Source: Actinospineispora eucalypti
Lineage (GTDB): Bacteria; Actinomycetota; Actinomycetes; Mycobacteriales; Pseudonocardiaceae
Assembly: GCA_014208095.1 (NCBI GenBank)
Contig: JACHMT010000002.1
Location: 372,001-436,000 of the forward strand
DNA length: 64,000 nucleotides
Direction of reading: 5' to 3'
Both the position numbers and the translations under genes were made by a program. Positions within the stretch are counted from its first letter, which is position 1. Each line of letters begins with the position of its first letter. Below the pieces are notes generated by a model. It did not search any database. It was given only the letters and a program-made list of their open reading frames with translations, and was not told the origin of the DNA. Of the stretch, positions 9,204 to 17,527 are shown in pieces.

Positions 9204-9510
9204 ATTTGTAAGATTTAGTGCCCTTATTGCAAATTTGTGGCCATCCTAGGTGGCCACGGAGAGAGATGCTACGGGTAGTAGTGACGAGCGACCTCGGGCG
9301 CCCACGATCGGGCTATGTCAACTACTGTGTGTAGTGAAATAGGCTCAAATAGCTCGCCTGGTCGACAGATCACCCGAAAGTGATTCACCCCGACGGGGTT
9401 TTGTTATCGCCTTCCACGGATTCGGTATGGACATGGTGATCGTCCCGAGACTAAGAAAATTAGTGGCCGAGGCGAAACGCGTCGCGGTCATTATCCAGGG
9501 AGGCAAAAGA
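9204..9510 (+). promoter_or_regulatory. Long A/T-richer leader region before the small secreted protein
   Basis: These 300 bases hold no convincing gene but are unusually A/T-rich for the window and full of dyads: GTGGCCA-N7-TGGCCAC (9237-9257), ACTAC-TGTGT-GTAGT (9321-9335) and ACCCC-GAC-GGGGT followed by TTTGTT (9387-9405), the last resembling an intrinsic terminator. A regulated promoter plus structured 5' leader is the simplest reading. I could not match it to a named riboswitch. Confidence 0.45.
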
Positions 9511-9786
9511 ATGGTGCACAGGTTCGGCAAGCGGGCGGCCGTCGCGTTCATCACGGGCGCCCTGGCGGTCGGGATGGCGGCGTTGTTCAGCGGCACCGCG
9601 CTGGCCGGCGGCCACCACGGTTACCACGACAACGACGGCGGCAACGGTGGTGGCGGCGGCGACGCCAACGCCAACTGTGTGCTTCCGATCGGCGTGGCCC
9701 TCGGGGTGATCGGCCAGGGCGGCGGGAACGCCCAGTGCAACGCGGTCGGCGGTGGCGGCGGCGAGGGCGGCGACGGCGTCGACTAG
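9511..9786 (+). CDS. Small secreted Gly/His/Asn-rich protein with two cysteines
   Basis: A 91-residue precursor. The ATG at 9511 is preceded by GGGAGG at good spacing, so the longer in-frame extension is not needed. Residues 1-32 form a clear Sec signal peptide (KRAA then hydrophobic core, cleavage after TALA). The mature 59 residues begin GGHHGYHDND, are Gly/Asn-rich and acidic, and contain two Cys (56 and 76) framing a hydrophobic stretch, VLPIGVALGVIGQGGG. The layout recalls small actinomycete surface or exospore proteins, but it does not match the chaplin or rodlin motifs I know. Function unknown. It has its own long leader and a strong terminator. Confidence 0.7.
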   Translation: MVHRFGKRAAVAFITGALAVGMAALFSGTALAGGHHGYHDNDGGNGGGGGDANANCVLPIGVALGVIGQGGGNAQCNAVGGGGGEGGDGVD

Positions 9787-9879: not shown

Positions 9880-10746
9880 GTGGTGATGCTCGGCCTGTCC
9901 CGCCCGGCGCTGGCCGGGCTGATCGTGCTGCTCGGGCTCGCCCCGGCCGGCATGGCCGACGCGTCCGAACCGGGCGCGCCCACCGCCTTACCCGGCACCG
10001 GGCCGGCGGCGAACGCCCCGGCGGCCCTGGATCCCGGCGGGCTGGTCGGCTTCTTCGGCAACGGCCTGCGCTGGCGCGAACAGGGCTCCTTCGGCCTGGA
10101 GCACGCCCGGCTGATGCCCGACGCCTCGGCCCCCGGCGCAATGGCGTTGCGGGTGGCCTACCCGGAGGGATCGGCGTCCCCGGAAGCCGCCCGCTCGGGC
10201 GCGAAACCCGGCGGCATGCAGGTCTACCTGCCGTTGGGCAGCCCGGCCGACACGATGAGCCTCTCCTACCTGATCCGGTTCGAGCCGGGTTTCCGCTTCG
10301 TCAAGGGCGGCAAGCTGCCCGGGCTGTACGGCGGCTCCGCCGGCAGCGGCGGCCAGCACCGCTCGGACGGCTTCTCCACCCGGTTCATGTGGCGCGAGGG
10401 CGGCGCCGGTGAGGTCAATGCCTACCTGCCGGGTAAGTCCGGCTACGGCGACCCGCTGGGCCATGCGACCTGGCGGTTCGCCCCGGGACGCTGGCAGCGG
10501 ATCACCCAGCGCGTGGTGCTCAACACCCCGGGGCGGTCCAACGGCACGCTCACCATCTGGGTGGACGGGCGGCGCGTGTTCAGCACGTCCACGCTGAACT
10601 TCCGCAACCGGCCCGACGTCCATGTCGACGGGCTGTTCTTCTCCACCTTCTTCGGCGGCGGCGACAAGTCCTGGGCCAGCCCGGACGACCAGTACGCCGA
10701 CTTCGCCGGTTTCACCCTCGGCCCGGGGGATCCTTCGCTGCGCTGA
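9880..10746 (+). CDS. Secreted polysaccharide lyase family 14-like protein
   Basis: A 288-residue exported protein. GTG at 9880 is followed by in-frame GTG and ATG codons, so the exact start is ambiguous. A signal peptide runs to about residue 28 (LLGLAPAGMADA). The mature part is a beta-jelly-roll like PL14 lyases, which cleave glucuronan or alginate-type uronic acid polymers by beta-elimination: SLSYLIRFEPGF, FVKGGKLPGLYGG (about residues 145-157), RWQRITQRVVLNTPG and the C-terminal VDGLFFSTFFGGGD. The KLPGLYGG signature is the strongest evidence. It stands alone after a terminator. Its substrate may be environmental or cell-surface uronate polymers. Confidence 0.72.
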   Translation: MVMLGLSRPALAGLIVLLGLAPAGMADASEPGAPTALPGTGPAANAPAALDPGGLVGFFGNGLRWREQGSFGLEHARLMPDASAPGAMALRVAYPEGSASPEAARSGAKPGGMQVYLPLGSPADTMSLSYLIRFEPGFRFVKGGKLPGLYGGSAGSGGQHRSDGFSTRFMWREGGAGEVNAYLPGKSGYGDPLGHATWRFAPGRWQRITQRVVLNTPGRSNGTLTIWVDGRRVFSTSTLNFRNRPDVHVDGLFFSTFFGGGDKSWASPDDQYADFAGFTLGPGDPSLR

Positions 10747-10774: not shown

Positions 10775-11350
10775 ATGCGGTTGTTCGTCGCCCTCAACCC
10801 TCCGGCCGAGGTGGTCGAGCAGCTGCGCGCGGCCATCCGGCCGCTGGCCGAGTCGACCTCCGGCCCGGTGCGCTGGGCGCGCCCGGACCAGTGGCACCTG
10901 ACGCTCGCCTTTCTCGGTGAGGTCGACGACGCGGCGCGCGCCGACCCCACCACCCGTCTGGCCCGCGTGGCCTCCCGCGCGGCGCCGCCGGCGTTGTCCG
11001 TGGCCGGCGCCGGCCGGTTCGGCCACCGCGTGCTCTGGGCGGGCCTGCACGGGGACATCCCGGACCTGCGCCGGATGGCCGCCTCGGTCCGGGCGGCGGC
11101 CCGCCGGGCCGGCCTGCTGAAACCGGACGCCCGGCCCTACCGGCCGCACCTGACGTTGGCCAGGTCGGCCGGCGGGACCGACCTGCGGCCCCTCGCGGCC
11201 GCCCTGGACGGCTTCACCAGCTCGCCGTGGACCGCCGAGGAGCTGCTCCTGGTGCGCAGCCGGCTGGGCGCGGGGCCCGGCCGGAGCTCGGACTACGACA
11301 CCGTCGGAAGCTGGCCGCTCGGCGGTCGAGGCGCTCAGGTGCGACCGTAG
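10775..11350 (+). CDS. thpR: RNA 2',3'-cyclic phosphodiesterase (ThpR/LigT, 2H family)
   Basis: A 191-residue 2H phosphoesterase starting MRLFVALNPP. Both catalytic HxTL motifs are present: HLTLAFLGE (about residue 40) and HLTLARS (about 129). The family opens 2',3'-cyclic phosphates at RNA ends and was first known as a 2'-5' RNA ligase. The ATG at 10775 gives the family-typical N-terminus. The 3' end overlaps the convergent mreB-like gene by 16 bp. Confidence 0.88.
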   Translation: MRLFVALNPPAEVVEQLRAAIRPLAESTSGPVRWARPDQWHLTLAFLGEVDDAARADPTTRLARVASRAAPPALSVAGAGRFGHRVLWAGLHGDIPDLRRMAASVRAAARRAGLLKPDARPYRPHLTLARSAGGTDLRPLAAALDGFTSSPWTAEELLLVRSRLGAGPGRSSDYDTVGSWPLGGRGAQVRP

Positions 11351-12327
11351 GCGGAGAGCAGCGCCGGGACGTGCAGGCTGGCGGCGGCCCCCTCGGCGAC
11401 ACAGGTCAGCGGCCGGTCGCTGAGCTTCACCGGGAAACCGAACGCCCGCTCCAGGGAGCCGGCGAACCCGCGCACCAGCGCGCCCCCGCCGAACAGCATG
11501 ATGCCCTCGGCGAGCACGTCGCCGACCGACTGCGGAGGCAGCTCGTCCAGGCAGGCCGACAGGGTCTGGATGATCGCGTCGGTGACCGGCTGCACCACCT
11601 CGTTCACCTCGGTCAGCGAGATGCTCGCCACCCTCGGCCGGCCGGACGCCGCGTCCCGGCCCTGCACGGCCAGCGCCGGTTCGTCCGCGAGCCCGGCCTC
11701 GATCTTGACCTGCTCGGCGGTCAGCTCGCCGACCAGCATCTGGTGGTGTTCTCGCAGGTGGTGGGCCACGGCGAGGGTCATCTCGTCGCCGGCCACCCGG
11801 CAGGAGCGGTGGGCCAGGATGCCGCCGAAACAGAACGCGGTCACCTCGGCGGTGCCGCCGCCGACGTCCACCACCAGGTGGGCCCGGCGCTCCAGCGGGT
11901 CGATGCCGCAGCCGATGGCGCCGGCGATCGGCTCGTCCAGCGCGGTGGCCTTGGTGATGCCGGCCTCGTCGGCCGCCTCCAACAGCGCCCGCCGTTCCAG
12001 CGCGGTGATGCCCACCGGGCAGCCGAGCACCGCGCGCACCCGGGTGCGCTGCCACCGGCGCGGGACCAGCCGGTGCAGCAGGATGCGCAGGTAGGTTCGC
12101 GTGGTCTCCAGGTCGGTGATCACCCCGTCGTGCACCGGCCGGATCACGCTCACCGTGGTCGGCGTGCGGCCGAGCAGCTCGCAGGCCTCCCGGCCCAGGG
12201 CCACCACCTCGGTCCGCCGCCCGGCCCCCGGCCGGATCAGCATGACCGAGGGCTCCTGCAGCAGGATGCCCTGCTCGACGTCGCACACCACGGTGTTCGC
12301 GGTGCCCAGGTCGATACCGAACTCCAT
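11335..12327 (-). CDS. MreB/Mbl-like bacterial actin
   Basis: A 330-residue actin/Hsp70-fold ATPase of MreB size. Motifs: phosphate-1 loop FGIDLGTANTVV (residue 3 on), EPIAGAIGCG, phosphate-2 VVDVGGGTAEV (about 160), and adenosine loop MLFGGGALVRG (about 288). MreB filaments position the elongation machinery under the membrane. The ATG at 12327 has a strong GGAAGGAG site and follows the SEDS-PBP fusion gene by only 4 bp, so the two are co-translated. In sporulating actinomycetes MreB homologues act mainly in spore-wall synthesis; a partnership with the fused polymerase/transpeptidase is inferred from the operon. MreC and MreD are not seen nearby. Confidence 0.88.
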   Translation of the reverse strand: MEFGIDLGTANTVVCDVEQGILLQEPSVMLIRPGAGRRTEVVALGREACELLGRTPTTVSVIRPVHDGVITDLETTRTYLRILLHRLVPRRWQRTRVRAVLGCPVGITALERRALLEAADEAGITKATALDEPIAGAIGCGIDPLERRAHLVVDVGGGTAEVTAFCFGGILAHRSCRVAGDEMTLAVAHHLREHHQMLVGELTAEQVKIEAGLADEPALAVQGRDAASGRPRVASISLTEVNEVVQPVTDAIIQTLSACLDELPPQSVGDVLAEGIMLFGGGALVRGFAGSLERAFGFPVKLSDRPLTCVAEGAAASLHVPALLSAYGRT

Positions 12328-12331
12328 TGCG

Positions 12332-15214
12332 TTATCTCCTTCCGGACGGTTCTGCCCGCTGGTGTGCCAGGTAGTGGTCGAGCGCCTCGCGGGCCACGGC
12401 GGTGGCACTGTTCTCGCCGGTCCCGGTGCCCTGCACCATCGCGGTCAGCACGATGCTCGGCGCGTCGTGCGGTGCGGCGACGGAGATCCAGTTGTCGTAG
12501 AGGTGGTCCGGCAGCGCGCCGTCCTGCGCGGTGCCGGTCTTGGCGCCGACCGGGGCCGGCAGGGTGGCCAACCGGCCGGCGGTGCCGCCGGTGACCGCGG
12601 CGCGCATGCCGTCGCGCACCGGGCCGAGCAGGTGGGCGAACGGCAGCGCCGTCGGCGGCGGCGCGGGCAGTGGCAGGTAGTTCGACTCGTCGGTGCCGGT
12701 GGCCAGGCCCAGCCGGGGAGTGACCAGCTGCCCGGTGGCCACGGCGGCGGTCCACCGGGCGTTCTGCAGCGGGGTGGTGGTCAGGTAGCCCTGGCCGATG
12801 CCCAGGATCACCGTCGAGCCCCCGTACCAGGTACCGCCCTTCGCCCGCACCGAGGCCGGCGTGCCCAGGTACCCGGGTGACTCGTGGGGCAGGTCGATCC
12901 CGGTGGGCCGGCCGACCCCGAGCGCGTCCGCGGTGGAGATCATCTTGTCCGGCCCGAGGCCCACCGCGAGCTTGTAGAAGTACACGTCGTTGGACCAGGC
13001 CAGGGACTGGCGCAGGTCCATCGGGCCCATGCCCTTCCAGTTGTTGAAGGTGTGCCCGCCCAGGGTGAAGCTGGCGCCGGTGGGGATCACCCGGTCCGCC
13101 GGGTAGACCGGGTACAGCTGGTTGGCGGCCGCGATGACCAGCTTGAAGGTGGAACCGGGCGGCACCGGGGTCTGCGCCGCGTGCTGGCGCATCGGGCTGC
13201 CCGGCTGGCCGGCCACCGCCCGCACCGCGCCCGCGTCCAGCGGCGGGCCGTAGATGTGGTTGTCGTAGCCGGGCACGCTGGCCAGCGCCAGCACCTGGCC
13301 GTTGCGCGGGTCCATCGCCACCCCGGCGCCGATCCGGCCCGGCTGGCTGCGCATGGCGGCGACCAGGCGGTCGTGCAGCACCCGCTGCAGGCCGAGGTCC
13401 AGCGCGAGCCGCAGGTTGGCGCCGGCCACCGGCTCGGTGTGCGAGCCCATGGCCACCGGGACGCCGTGCGGGTCCACGTACACGCACTGCTCGCCGTCGA
13501 TACCCCGCAGCACCGCGTCGTACTGCTGCTCCAGGCCGGCCCGCCCCACCGTCTGGCCCAGCGGCAGGTCCGGCCAGCGGCGCATCTCGGTGGGCGTGGC
13601 CAGGCCGGTGTAGCCCAGCACCGGGCCGAGCAGGATGCCGGTGGGGTAGTCCCGGCGGGCCCGGTCGACCAGGATCACCCCGGTGCGGGCCAGCGCGGGC
13701 CCGGCACCGGCCGGCACGTCGGCCACCGGCACGGCGAGGGTGGTCGGCGGCGCCGACCAGAGCGCGGAGCGCACCGTGTCCACGGGCTGTCCGGTCAGCT
13801 CGGCCAGCCGCTCGGGACCGCCCGGCTGTTCGCGGACCAGAGCGGGCACCGCGAACACCCGCAGCATGCCGTCGGTGGCGCTCACCGCGAGCGGCGCGCC
13901 GTGCCGGTCGGTGATCGCCCCCCGGGGCGCCGGAATGGGGAAGCAACGGGTCATCTGCCGCTGCCCGGCGGCGGCCAGCTCCGGCCCCTCGGTGGCCCGC
14001 ACCCGCCAGCCGTAGTGGCCGAACGAGAGCAGCAGCACCGTGATGGCCAGGGCCACCGCGCGCACCATCCGGGGGCGCCGGGCGCGCCGGCTGCCCACCG
14101 CCCAGAGCGGCCGGCGCACCCCGTCGCGGCGCACCCCCAGCACCACACCGAGCGCGGCGAGGTGCACGAGCAGCGCCGAACCGCCGTAGCTGAGCAGCGG
14201 GAACGGCACACCGGCCAGCGGCAGCAGGCCCAGGTTGCCGCCCAACGAAACCGTCGTCTCCACCCCGATCAGCGCGGCCAGTCCACCGGCGAGCAGCGCG
14301 CCGTGGGCGTTCCGGGTCGCCCGGGTGGCCAGCGCCAGCCGCCACACCAGAACCAGCGCGGCGAGCACCACCGCCGCGCCGGCCCCCACCCCGAACTGCT
14401 CCACCACGCTGGCCACGGCGAGGTCGGTGTCCCGTTCGGGCAGGTACTGGGACAGCACGTGGGTGAGCGGCTGGCCGGGACCGAGCAGCCCGGCCGAACC
14501 GAGCGCGATGCGGGCCTGCTGCACCGCCCACCCGGCGCCGGCCGGGTCGGTGTGCGAACCGGCCAGGAAGCTGCCCAGCCGCTCCAGCTGGTACGGCCGC
14601 AGCAGGCCGACCGCGAGCGGCGCGGCCACCACGCCCGCGCCGACCAGGGACAGCAGGAACCGCCCCGGCACCCGGCCGAGCACCAGCATCACCACGGCCA
14701 GCGCGGTGAGCAGGGCCGCCGTGCTCAGGTCCGGCTGCACCACGGTCAGCGCGATCGGGGCCAACGCCAGCGGCACGGCCAGCGCGAACCGCCGCCAGGA
14801 CGGCTCGGCCGAGCCCAACGCGGACGCGACCACCAGCAGCATGCCCAGCTTGACCAGCTCGGAGGGCTGGAAGGACACCGCCCCGAGGTCGATCCACCGG
14901 GTCGCGCCCTTCGCGCTGCTGCCCACCACCAGCACCGCGAGCAGGAAGAAGATCGCCACCGCGTAGCAGGCCCAACCCAGCGCGGCCAGCAGCCGGACCC
15001 GGAACCGCCACAGCCAGCCGAGCAGCGCAAGCCCGAGCAGCGCAACCACGGCCTGGCGCGCCGCGAGGCCGAAGCCACTCACCGCGTAGAGGTTGGCGAC
15101 GCCCAGGCCGACCAGCACCACCGCCGAGGCCACCGCGACCAGGTCGAAGGCACCGCCGCGCAGGTGCTCTCGGGGCAAACCAGCCGGAACGCGTTTTCCG
15201 ACCGGATAGCCCAT
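12332..15214 (-). CDS. SEDS polymerase (RodA/FtsW) fused to class B PBP transpeptidase
   Basis: A 960-residue single polypeptide. Residues about 20-395 are a polytopic SEDS glycosyltransferase (RWIDLGAVSFQPSELVKLGM; catalytic-loop YLPERDTDLAVASVVEQFG with the conserved Asp; PFPLLSYGGS). After a basic linker, one further membrane segment (about 415-435, VALAITVLLLSFGHYGW) leads to a class B PBP: pedestal start APRGAITDRHGAPLA, then transpeptidase motifs STFK (Ser688, Lys691), SND (741-743) and KTGTA (Lys892). Lipid II polymerisation and peptide crosslinking are thus tied in one chain; all key motifs are intact. The ATG at 15214 is preceded by GAGGAG. It lies between a bitopic membrane protein gene and mreB. 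No internal stop or frameshift, so the fusion is real as sequenced. Confidence 0.93.
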   Translation of the reverse strand: MGYPVGKRVPAGLPREHLRGGAFDLVAVASAVVLVGLGVANLYAVSGFGLAARQAVVALLGLALLGWLWRFRVRLLAALGWACYAVAIFFLLAVLVVGSSAKGATRWIDLGAVSFQPSELVKLGMLLVVASALGSAEPSWRRFALAVPLALAPIALTVVQPDLSTAALLTALAVVMLVLGRVPGRFLLSLVGAGVVAAPLAVGLLRPYQLERLGSFLAGSHTDPAGAGWAVQQARIALGSAGLLGPGQPLTHVLSQYLPERDTDLAVASVVEQFGVGAGAAVVLAALVLVWRLALATRATRNAHGALLAGGLAALIGVETTVSLGGNLGLLPLAGVPFPLLSYGGSALLVHLAALGVVLGVRRDGVRRPLWAVGSRRARRPRMVRAVALAITVLLLSFGHYGWRVRATEGPELAAAGQRQMTRCFPIPAPRGAITDRHGAPLAVSATDGMLRVFAVPALVREQPGGPERLAELTGQPVDTVRSALWSAPPTTLAVPVADVPAGAGPALARTGVILVDRARRDYPTGILLGPVLGYTGLATPTEMRRWPDLPLGQTVGRAGLEQQYDAVLRGIDGEQCVYVDPHGVPVAMGSHTEPVAGANLRLALDLGLQRVLHDRLVAAMRSQPGRIGAGVAMDPRNGQVLALASVPGYDNHIYGPPLDAGAVRAVAGQPGSPMRQHAAQTPVPPGSTFKLVIAAANQLYPVYPADRVIPTGASFTLGGHTFNNWKGMGPMDLRQSLAWSNDVYFYKLAVGLGPDKMISTADALGVGRPTGIDLPHESPGYLGTPASVRAKGGTWYGGSTVILGIGQGYLTTTPLQNARWTAAVATGQLVTPRLGLATGTDESNYLPLPAPPPTALPFAHLLGPVRDGMRAAVTGGTAGRLATLPAPVGAKTGTAQDGALPDHLYDNWISVAAPHDAPSIVLTAMVQGTGTGENSATAVAREALDHYLAHQRAEPSGRR

Positions 15215-15233
15215 GACCGTGTCTCCTCGGCGC

Positions 15234-15833
15234 CTAGCAGGTTCCGGGGTTCGGTACGCGCAGTGGCGCGCTGGCCGCGACCGGGGTGCCCGGCTCACCG
15301 GCCAGGGCAACTACCGCAAGTGCCTTGGCCGACGGCAGCACCACGGTGCTGACCGCGGCCACGCCGGTGCCGCCCGCCGTGACCCTGGCCGACCCTCCGG
15401 GGGAGTCCCAGCCGGCCCCGGTGCACCGGTCCAGCACGCGGAAGGTCCAGCGCACCTCCATCGGCGCGGCCACCGCCGGCCGGATCAGCACCCGCACCTG
15501 GCAGGGCGCGCCCGGCTCGCACCGGCCCATGGCGCGCAGGTCCACGTCGGCGATCGCCGCCGTGGCGGGCGGCGCGAGCACCGGCACGGGTGGCGCCGGC
15601 ACGCCGCCGGACGGATCACTGACCGGCGCCGGGCGGGCCGCCTGCTGGAGCAGGTCCACGTCCCGGCCGATCCGTTCCCGCAACAGGGTCAGCTCGGCGA
15701 TCAGCACCACGACCAGCAGCAACGGCCCGAGCAGCCAGCCCAGGGGGGTCCGGCGGGACCCGAGGCGCAGGTCGACGGCGGGCAGCATCGTGCCGGCGCG
15801 CGGATGCGCGCGTCGAACCCTCGGCCGACTCAC
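15234..15833 (-). CDS. Bitopic membrane protein of the SEDS-PBP/MreB operon
   Basis: About 199 residues, not recognised as a named family. A basic cytoplasmic N-terminus (SRPRVRRAHPR) precedes one transmembrane helix (about residues 30-50, LGWLLGPLLLVVVLIAELTLL split as LGWLLGPLLLVVV/LIAELTLL), then a short coiled stretch (RERIGRDVDLLQQAAR), a Pro/Ala-rich linker and an extracytoplasmic beta-rich domain with four cysteines (in GRCEPGAPC, LDRCTG and the C-terminal PGTC), probably two disulfides. I chose the GTG at 15833 for its GGAGAAG site; an upstream start at 15923 is possible. It ends 19 bp before the fusion gene, so it is likely a structural partner of that enzyme, by position only. Confidence 0.7.
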   Translation of the reverse strand: MSRPRVRRAHPRAGTMLPAVDLRLGSRRTPLGWLLGPLLLVVVLIAELTLLRERIGRDVDLLQQAARPAPVSDPSGGVPAPPVPVLAPPATAAIADVDLRAMGRCEPGAPCQVRVLIRPAVAAPMEVRWTFRVLDRCTGAGWDSPGGSARVTAGGTGVAAVSTVVLPSAKALAVVALAGEPGTPVAASAPLRVPNPGTC

Positions 15834-16009
15834 CCCGACTTCTCCGTCCCCCGACGTGCGGAGGGCCGCCCAGACCCCCGTGCCAAGCACACCACCGCCG
15901 GATGACGAAGTGGGCTTCGGCACGGCAACGATCCGAATGCGACCGCGTCCGCGAGCTGACGGTCTACCCGGCCGACCAGCGGCCGAAACGCCTTTCCCGG
16001 CGTGTCGAG

Positions 16010-16164: not shown

Positions 16165-17097
16165 TCAGAGTGGTGTCATGGCGGGCGACTCGGCGAGGTA
16201 GAGCACGGCGGCGAACTGCTCGCGCACCGCGATGCGCACCTGGTCCGGCCGGCCGAACCACTCCTTGCGCGGCCGGCCGAAGAGCCCGCGCGCCGGCTCG
16301 GCGGCCGCCGGGTCGACGATCACGTAGGGGCTGCCGAAACGGCGCAGGCGAGCGTCGAACGAGCGGGAACGGGTGTCCCGCCCGTCGTTCGGCTCCACGT
16401 CCTTGCCGGGCCAGCGGGTGGCGACGTGCGAGCCGGTCAGGGCGACCGCCCGGTAGCGGTCGCCCAGTTCCTCGCGCAGCAGCGTGCCCATCCCCCGGAC
16501 CGCGCCCATCCAGTAGCCCCGCAACCCGGCGCGGTGGGTGGCGTGGGCGAGATGACCGTTGTGGGCCCAGACCACCGTCCTCCGCCCGCCGGCCCGGTGT
16601 TCTCTCAGCACCCGCAGGGCCTCGGCCATCCCGTCCTCCCGGGCCTGAACACCGGGCGGCTCCGTGGCCCGGCCGACCAGCGCATCCCGGTCCTCCTCGG
16701 GTTGCTGCACGTCGAAGCCGAAGAGGCTGAGCGGGTCGTCCGGGTGCTCGACGTTCCACCGCCGCATCCAGCGCACCTGGCCGACCATCTCGGCGCACGC
16801 CCACACCGGGTAGAGGCCGCGTGCCGTCACCTCGGCCGGGTCGCCCTCCCCGGTGGCCAGGTACCGGCCGATCCGTTCCGCGTCCTGCCAGCTCGACTCG
16901 ATGGCCAGCGCGCGGAACCCGTGCCGGCGGACCAGGTAGGCGAACACCCGGTGTTTGGCCCGGTAGAAGCCGCCGGACGTGTGCACCGACTCACCCAGCC
17001 CGACCAGCTCGGCATCGCCGACCAGCTCGCCGAGCGGATCCAGCTCGTGGTCGGGGCCGTCGAGGTCCAGCGAGGTCAACCGGTAGACGCCGTTCAC
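16165..17097 (-). CDS. Erythromycin esterase-family protein, internally shortened
   Basis: About 310 residues from the GTG at 17097. Catalytic features of the Ere/succinoglycan-biosynthesis esterase family are present: VGLGESVHTSGGFYRAKHR (Glu and His near residue 30), AIESSW, the GFDVQQP turn, and VVWAHNGHLAHA with the second His (about 185). Compared with typical members of about 400 residues, the helical segment expected between GFDVQQP and the WAHNGH strand is nearly absent (only about 45 residues). Either this is a compact subfamily or an internal deletion has occurred. The start lacks a clear ribosome-binding site. Macrolide hydrolysis should not be assumed. Confidence 0.62.
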   Translation of the reverse strand: MNGVYRLTSLDLDGPDHELDPLGELVGDAELVGLGESVHTSGGFYRAKHRVFAYLVRRHGFRALAIESSWQDAERIGRYLATGEGDPAEVTARGLYPVWACAEMVGQVRWMRRWNVEHPDDPLSLFGFDVQQPEEDRDALVGRATEPPGVQAREDGMAEALRVLREHRAGGRRTVVWAHNGHLAHATHRAGLRGYWMGAVRGMGTLLREELGDRYRAVALTGSHVATRWPGKDVEPNDGRDTRSRSFDARLRRFGSPYVIVDPAAAEPARGLFGRPRKEWFGRPDQVRIAVREQFAAVLYLAESPAMTPL

Positions 17098-17146
17098 CGG
17101 CCCAGTCTGGCCACGCCGGGAGGGAAGATCCACACGATAGGCCCAG

Positions 17147-17527
17147 TTAGCCCTCGCCGCGCTCCCGGAGCAGGCGGAAGGCGCCGACCGCGGCGTAGCC
17201 GCCGGTGAGCGCGCCGAGCGCGACGACGGCGCGCAGCGGTGCGTCCCGGCGAACCAGGTGACCCAGCGCGGTGAGGGTGTCCGAGGTGTCCACGGCCAGC
17301 CCGATCCGGTGCCAGCGCCGCCGGCCCTCCGCCGGTTCACCCAGGTAGCCGACGCCGAGCGCGAGAGCCCGCGCGCCGTAGATCCGGGTCAGGTAGGCAA
17401 CCGTCGGGCTGCTGCTCAGGCCGAATCCTCGCACCAACGGCCCCGGCGCGGCCAGCGCGCACACGCCGAGCAGGATCCGCCCGGCCGCCAACGCGACCAG
17501 CGCGTCGGGCTTCTGTCGATCACTCAT
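17147..17527 (-). CDS. Small membrane protein, DUF4267-like
   Basis: A 126-residue protein with about three or four hydrophobic stretches (VALAAGRILLGVCALAAPG; LTRIYGARALALGVGYL; AVVALGALTGGYAAVGAFRLL). The order of segments, including the RIYGARALALG motif, fits DUF4267/DUF4345-like integral membrane proteins of unknown function. I use the ATG at 17527; the longer frame starting at 17563 lacks a better site. It sits between the esterase-like gene and an SDR gene on the same strand. Confidence 0.6.
   Translation of the reverse strand: MSDRQKPDALVALAAGRILLGVCALAAPGPLVRGFGLSSSPTVAYLTRIYGARALALGVGYLGEPAEGRRRWHRIGLAVDTSDTLTALGHLVRRDAPLRAVVALGALTGGYAAVGAFRLLRERGEG

Follow-up and report, generated by a model that had tools for sequence, protein, structure and literature searches.

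SEDS (shape, elongation, division and sporulation) glycan polymerases and class B penicillin-binding proteins (PBPs) are normally separate proteins. Here we describe a gene that encodes both on one chain, located at positions 12332-15214 on the minus strand of a 64,000-nucleotide stretch of the Actinospineispora eucalypti genome (assembly GCA_014208095.1, contig JACHMT010000002.1, positions 372,001 to 436,000), referred to below as the window. The tightness with which polymerisation and crosslinking are paired is a live question, and laboratories build fusions to study it. Engineered SEDS-PBP fusions are active in vivo and in vitro, and the engineered Escherichia coli RodA-PBP2 fusions, which work, have the same SEDS-then-PBP order as the natural fusion (PMC10449877, PMC6207328). 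The existence of natural fusions was stated in one clause in 2023, citing the Rhodococcus RHA1 genome (PMC10449877). The single open reading frame for SEDS and PBP is common to that fusion and to ours; the gene cassette described below is not part of that one-clause mention. A relative of the window fusion with the same cassette is found in R. jostii NBRC 16295 (L100). Because natural fusions are in print, the novelty of the fusion is smaller than first thought, while the conserved cassette makes the finding of larger interest.

With the RodA-PBP2 pair (MrdB-MrdA) of the Rod complex the locus shares both enzymes, an adjoining MreB and, as far as the model shows, the same membrane arrangement. 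Unlike that pair, the fusion is a natural single chain, its MreB is divergent, no MreC or MreD was found with it, and its scores fall short of the curated cut-offs for rodA and pbp2. The Streptomyces spore wall synthesizing complex also combines an actinomycete MreB with a RodA/PBP2 pair, but from separate genes, with MreC, MreD, PBP2 and Sfr in an mre cluster (PMC7985256). The same source states that conservation of MreB, MreC, MreD, PBP2 and Sfr does not extend to all sporulating actinomycetes and that other mechanisms may exist. In a study of Geodermatophilaceae, MreB was annotated in all of its genomes and the budding mechanism was described as not known (PMC9686282). Class A PBPs likewise carry polymerase and crosslinker on one chain; their polymerase is a GT51 domain (PMC10449877), whereas that of the fusion is SEDS. 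No description of the three-gene cassette was found in searches of open-licence literature, which might not reveal an account published in a subscription journal.

From the ATG at 15214 to the stop at 12332 the gene is one open frame of 960 amino acids, with a predicted product mass of 99 kDa. A GAGGAG sequence at 15223-15228 ends 8 bases ahead of the ATG. At 75% GC an open frame is no proof alone, so domain matches and conservation serve as the evidence. Its features, with confidence in the model given as predicted local distance difference test (pLDDT), are as follows.

12332-15214, minus strand: coding sequence (CDS) of the SEDS-class B PBP fusion, 960 amino acids, ATG at 15214 (translation and sequence)
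14126-15133, minus strand: SEDS glycosyltransferase part, FTSW_RODA_SPOVE, residues 28-363 (Pfam, E = 2.1e-65)
14423-14425, minus strand: codon of D264 of the SEDS part (D264 in 81 of 81 fusions)
14072-14125, minus strand: linker, residues 364-381, with conserved L370, W371 and P381 and with R382 adjoining (alignment; pLDDT)
13952-14071, minus strand: helix 382-421, interpreted as the membrane anchor of the PBP (AlphaFold model)
13454-13939, minus strand: PBP_dimer (pedestal), residues 426-587, with C577 inside and C424 just before it (Pfam, E = 3.2e-19)
12380-13330, minus strand: transpeptidase domain, residues 629-945 (Pfam, E = 6.4e-43)
13142-13153 (STFK), 12986-12994 (SND) and 12530-12541 (KTGT), minus strand: transpeptidase motifs (sequence and alignment)

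All three Pfam domains exceed their cut-offs; the FTSW_RODA_SPOVE match reaches 221.5 bits against a cut-off of 26.4 and covers positions 13-352 of the 356-position profile. The initial annotation had claimed one polypeptide with a SEDS polymerase and a class B PBP, and a Pfam scan of the kind it suggested indeed places FTSW_RODA_SPOVE and transpeptidase in one 960-residue frame, at the coordinates it gave and on the minus strand. Its further claim of intact motifs also held, with D264, S688-T-F-K691, S741-N-D and K892-T-G-T-A all present; PBP_dimer together with a transpeptidase carrying SxxK, SxN and KTG marks the second half as a class B PBP. The AlphaFold model (mean pLDDT 89.0, predicted template modelling score 0.76) fits the topology it proposed. 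Its helix list, by our count, gives the SEDS part ten helices long enough to cross the membrane; a short low-confidence linker follows (pLDDT falls below 50 within residues 364-381 only at 371-377), and the long helix 382-421 then leads into the PBP fold. Matches listed in the structure search covered the PBP part only, and the SEDS part was therefore compared by sequence. A promoter and terminator scan gave no promoter-like site; one terminator-like site lies inside the fusion gene, compared with 0.8 in shuffles.

A scan of named genomes found 390 relatives, of which the best 80 loci were kept and aligned with the window (81 fusions in all). The conjecture that related fusions may exist was thus borne out, as it is by the printed mention (PMC10449877). 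D264, which aligns with D262 of E. coli MrdB, S688, K691 and S741 each occur in 81 of 81 fusions, and K892 in all 80 that extend to that position. D262 of E. coli RodA is the catalytic aspartate, located in an extracellular loop (PMC10449877). Some positions vary: position 742 is D in 28 fusions, 893 is S in eight, D162 is replaced by N in four and E119 by D in three. Cysteines C424 and C577 of the PBP part are found in 81 of 81 fusions; a disulfide between them is possible, as a guess.

The frame is open through the linker in all 80 loci; 77 span query residues 60-930 or more and three end at contig ends. Thirteen further copies outside the 80 are likewise each a single frame that crosses the linker and reaches about query residue 945-964. 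Five of these are flagged with a single in-frame stop each, and the stops therefore sit at the C-terminal end. An assembly or sequencing error in the linker, the flaw that could have undone the original claim, is ruled out by the 80 open frames and also by plasmid records that annotate one CDS (WP_159929546.1, WP_206004446.1 and WP_109336180.1). Judged by these alignments, the fusion is a conserved protein and not an assembly artefact.

Could the chain nevertheless end up as two proteins, through linker proteolysis or an internal start? An ATG for M383 stands just ahead of the PBP helix in the window, and an engineered E. coli fusion was cleaved to a minor extent (PMC6207328). However, a methionine is found at position 383 in only 3 of 81 fusions and at 384 in 11, and no purine-rich site was seen ahead of the M383 ATG of the window. 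The linker is conserved in length and sequence: the span R362-C424 is 62 residues in 67 of the 81 fusions and 58-63 across all, and L370, W371, P381 and R382 are found in every one. No split version occurs in the 80 loci, a list picked for likeness to the fusion, from which the frequency of split relatives is not readable. We regard two separate proteins as very unlikely.

The fusion has two partners, which add to what the initial annotation had noticed.

15234-15788, minus strand: membrane protein with one transmembrane pass and an extracellular beta-sandwich, 184 amino acids, ATG at 15788 with the start inferred (family alignment; model of a relative)
11335-12327, minus strand: MreB-type actin, 330 amino acids (Pfam MreB_Mbl, PF06723, E = 3.3e-84, residues 11-330; translation)

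The stop of the upstream gene ends 19 bases ahead of the fusion ATG, and the mreB ATG (12327) lies 4 bases past the fusion stop. With one strand and gaps of 19 and 4 bases, the three genes look like one operon. MreB was found inside the fetched stretch in 76 of the 80 loci, placed convergently downstream in 67, downstream on the same strand in three and upstream on the same strand in six; the gap to the fusion has a median of 68 bases and a maximum of 1498. A neighbour that is kept while its side and strand vary argues for shared function. Four loci (L064, L078, L080 and L086) have no MreB within the fetched stretch; an MreB-type match lies elsewhere in each of the genomes of the first three, and in L078 it is split into two pieces. 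A genome-wide search found MreB in 10 of 10 genomes of chosen loci, seven of which had MreB in the locus already, leaving three newly informative. Besides the three cassette genes, no flanking open reading frame of at least 120 amino acids, in flanks of up to 6 kb, recurs in more than eight other loci.

The upstream membrane protein, which has no Pfam family match, is likewise present in 76 of 80 loci. Three of the four without it (L046, L070 and L080) have the fusion starting less than 150 bases from a contig end; the fourth, L084, from a metagenome-assembled genome (MAG) labelled Chloroflexi, has room upstream, yet no membrane protein was found. Relatives (for example L052, 2055-3302) have an LTPAQA-type cytoplasmic domain, one helix and a beta-sandwich, with no Pfam match above cut-off. 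In the family alignment four cysteines of their beta-sandwich are invariant, the final one close to or at the protein end, and the cytoplasmic domain, which may resemble a protein kinase C-lobe or a KIND fold, occurs in 60 of 80 loci. A Foldseek search with the upstream protein gave two matches at E of 0.001 or below (AlkC, 2.8e-4; beta-glucuronidase, 6.7e-4); the remaining matches were weak, and many were beta-sandwich proteins. In the window the open frame extends past the ATG at 15788 to a GTG at 15923. An erythromycin-esterase-like gene (16165-17340) occupies the space where the cytoplasmic domain of the relatives would be.

The best 80 loci come from Pseudonocardia, Geodermatophilaceae, Rhodococcus, Prescottella, Haloechinothrix, Actinomycetospora, Nocardioides, Hoyosella, Skermania, Amycolatopsis alkalitolerans, Phytoactinopolyspora and others, together with the MAG labelled Chloroflexi. 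That MAG carries the fusion, a cassette MreB and a canonical MreB, and misbinning is possible; a canonical MreB is also found in a Nocardioides genome. Of 120 genomes in the family of the source genome, 18 contain a match to the fusion at E = 1e-30 or better: nine, including the source genome, carry a near-full-length fusion, one (G081) shows the PBP part only, at a contig end, and in eight the match is only to a distant PBP (33-35% identity). A search for MreB (E = 1e-40 or better) found it in 10 of the 120, the same 10 as the fusion with G081 included (identities agree wherever both listings show them). The source genome has one such MreB and three SEDS genes. Its assembly is 9.6 Mb with a contamination estimate of 6.67%; four genomes of the same genus are 4.4-6.7 Mb. 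At the level of the order, 13 of 298 genomes (source included) gave matches at E = 1e-60, two of them partial (query 24-875 and 236-956), and at that of the class 6 of 394 did so (source included). A looser class search (E = 1e-36) matched 117 of 246 genomes; among the places listed, only five already known fusions (source included) cover both parts, and the rest match one half each at 31-40% identity.

To which kind of synthase the fusion belongs was judged from profile scores. The SEDS half scores 240 bits with the rodA model TIGR02210 and 205 bits with ftsW, and for the PBP half the pbp2 model TIGR03423 (344.3 bits) is the top score among the 22 models listed. In these searches both halves score highest with Rod-type models and below that with division-type ones. 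The initial annotation had spoken of an elongation or division synthase; the synthase pair stands, and of the two types the Rod type is favoured in both halves. Several fusion-carrying hosts sporulate or fragment, which would suit a division or sporulation-septum synthase of the FtsW-FtsI or SpoVE-SpoVD type. The match of the SEDS half to ftsW as well, the uncertain sister group of the fusion SEDS halves in the SEDS tree and polar growth in the actinomycetes studied (PMC3296230) point the same way. Set against the higher Rod-type scores, this assignment seems improbable.

Trees were built for 15 cassettes, the window and 14 of the 80 loci. The SEDS halves of the 15 fusions form one clade and so do the PBP halves, with no firm sister group for either. 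Their MreBs form a clade apart from six canonical MreBs (100/100), and some close pairings of the fusion trees recur within it. The window groups with Pseudonocardia acaciae in the SEDS (96/96), PBP (100/99) and MreB (98/96) trees. The simplest reading would be that the fusion arose once and was then passed on by shared descent or by transfer. Plain read-through of a classic mre operon was rejected as the origin: three actinomycete mre-type clusters (L163, L165 and L166) have the order MreB, PBP2, RodA, and since PBP2 precedes RodA there, joining such neighbours would yield the order opposite to that of the fusion.

We consider it probable that the cassette encodes a compact alternative Rod machine, consisting of a fused Rod-type synthase, its own MreB and a bitopic protein. 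From the computed features, namely the single frame, the motifs, conservation, the cassette, co-occurrence and the single clades, we infer its mechanism, including that the enzymes are active, that the three proteins touch one another and that the fusion has a role separate from those of the other two SEDS genes in the source genome. The fusion would be the core of the cassette, and its covalent 1:1 pairing of the two enzymes may matter in the cell. Its RodA-like half would polymerise lipid II at the membrane, and its PBP2-like half, tethered by its own helix right after the SEDS part, would crosslink the new strand outside the cell. The divergent-clade MreB would orient the synthase from inside. 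The bitopic protein, in contact with both membrane sides, would most likely link and activate as MreC, MreD and RodZ do elsewhere, a role suggested because no MreC or MreD was found in the family. The separate role is probably in the lateral, spore or fragmentation wall.

More tentatively, the cassette may constitute a second elongasome in which a divergent MreB, a fused SEDS-PBP2 and a bitopic adaptor replacing MreC/MreD/RodZ build non-polar, spore or fragmentation wall, and the adaptor of many relatives may read MreB via its possibly kinase-C-lobe-like (KIND-like) domain. The actinomycetes concerned (Rhodococcus, Pseudonocardia, Geodermatophilaceae, Nocardioides and others) belong to a phylum in which growth is taken to be polar. 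A natural fusion has been kept by evolution across several families, and a Rod-like machine with so few components, together with an actinomycete MreB for which no MreC or MreD was found, makes the minimal set that steers a SEDS synthase testable.

Several observations weigh against the compact Rod machine. The equivalog cut-offs of TIGR02210 (336.7 bits) and TIGR03423 (455 bits) are missed by both halves, and the SEDS-tree join to E. coli MrdB involves long branches. The upstream protein of the window lacks the cytoplasmic domain, which weakens a linker role here. MreC and MreD were each found in 0 of 120 family genomes, source included, in a search with Pfam models covering both; the controls for these models matched in 8 and 5 of 14, no actinomycete among those, and a divergent homologue could be missed. 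The co-occurrence of fusion and MreB counts genomes and not independent events, which kinship reduces to fewer than 10. In L078 there is no MreB in the 6 kb downstream of the fusion. The fusion is also found on three Rhodococcus plasmids (L175, L176 and L177), where it has no MreB gene less than 5 kb away. Two of the plasmids have neither partner within about 5 kb, one showing a mere 20-residue MreB match (E = 0.008), and L176 alone keeps a piece of the upstream membrane protein. Plasmid copies without partners indicate that the fusion can travel alone.

These copies, and a patchy distribution in which the fusion is absent from the four same-genus genomes among the 120, would suit a lone mobile accessory wall enzyme whose proximity to MreB reflects inherited linkage and no shared function. 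We think this unlikely, since MreB remains near the fusion despite its changed side and strand, the cassette MreBs form one clade that echoes the fusion trees, and the phyletic match in the family is 10 of 10.

Two other genes in the window were noted. A small secreted-looking Gly/His-rich protein at 9427-9786, with two cysteines flanking a hydrophobic stretch, is presumably chaplin-like, and 9880-10746 encodes a polysaccharide lyase 14 family protein (E = 1.4e-58).
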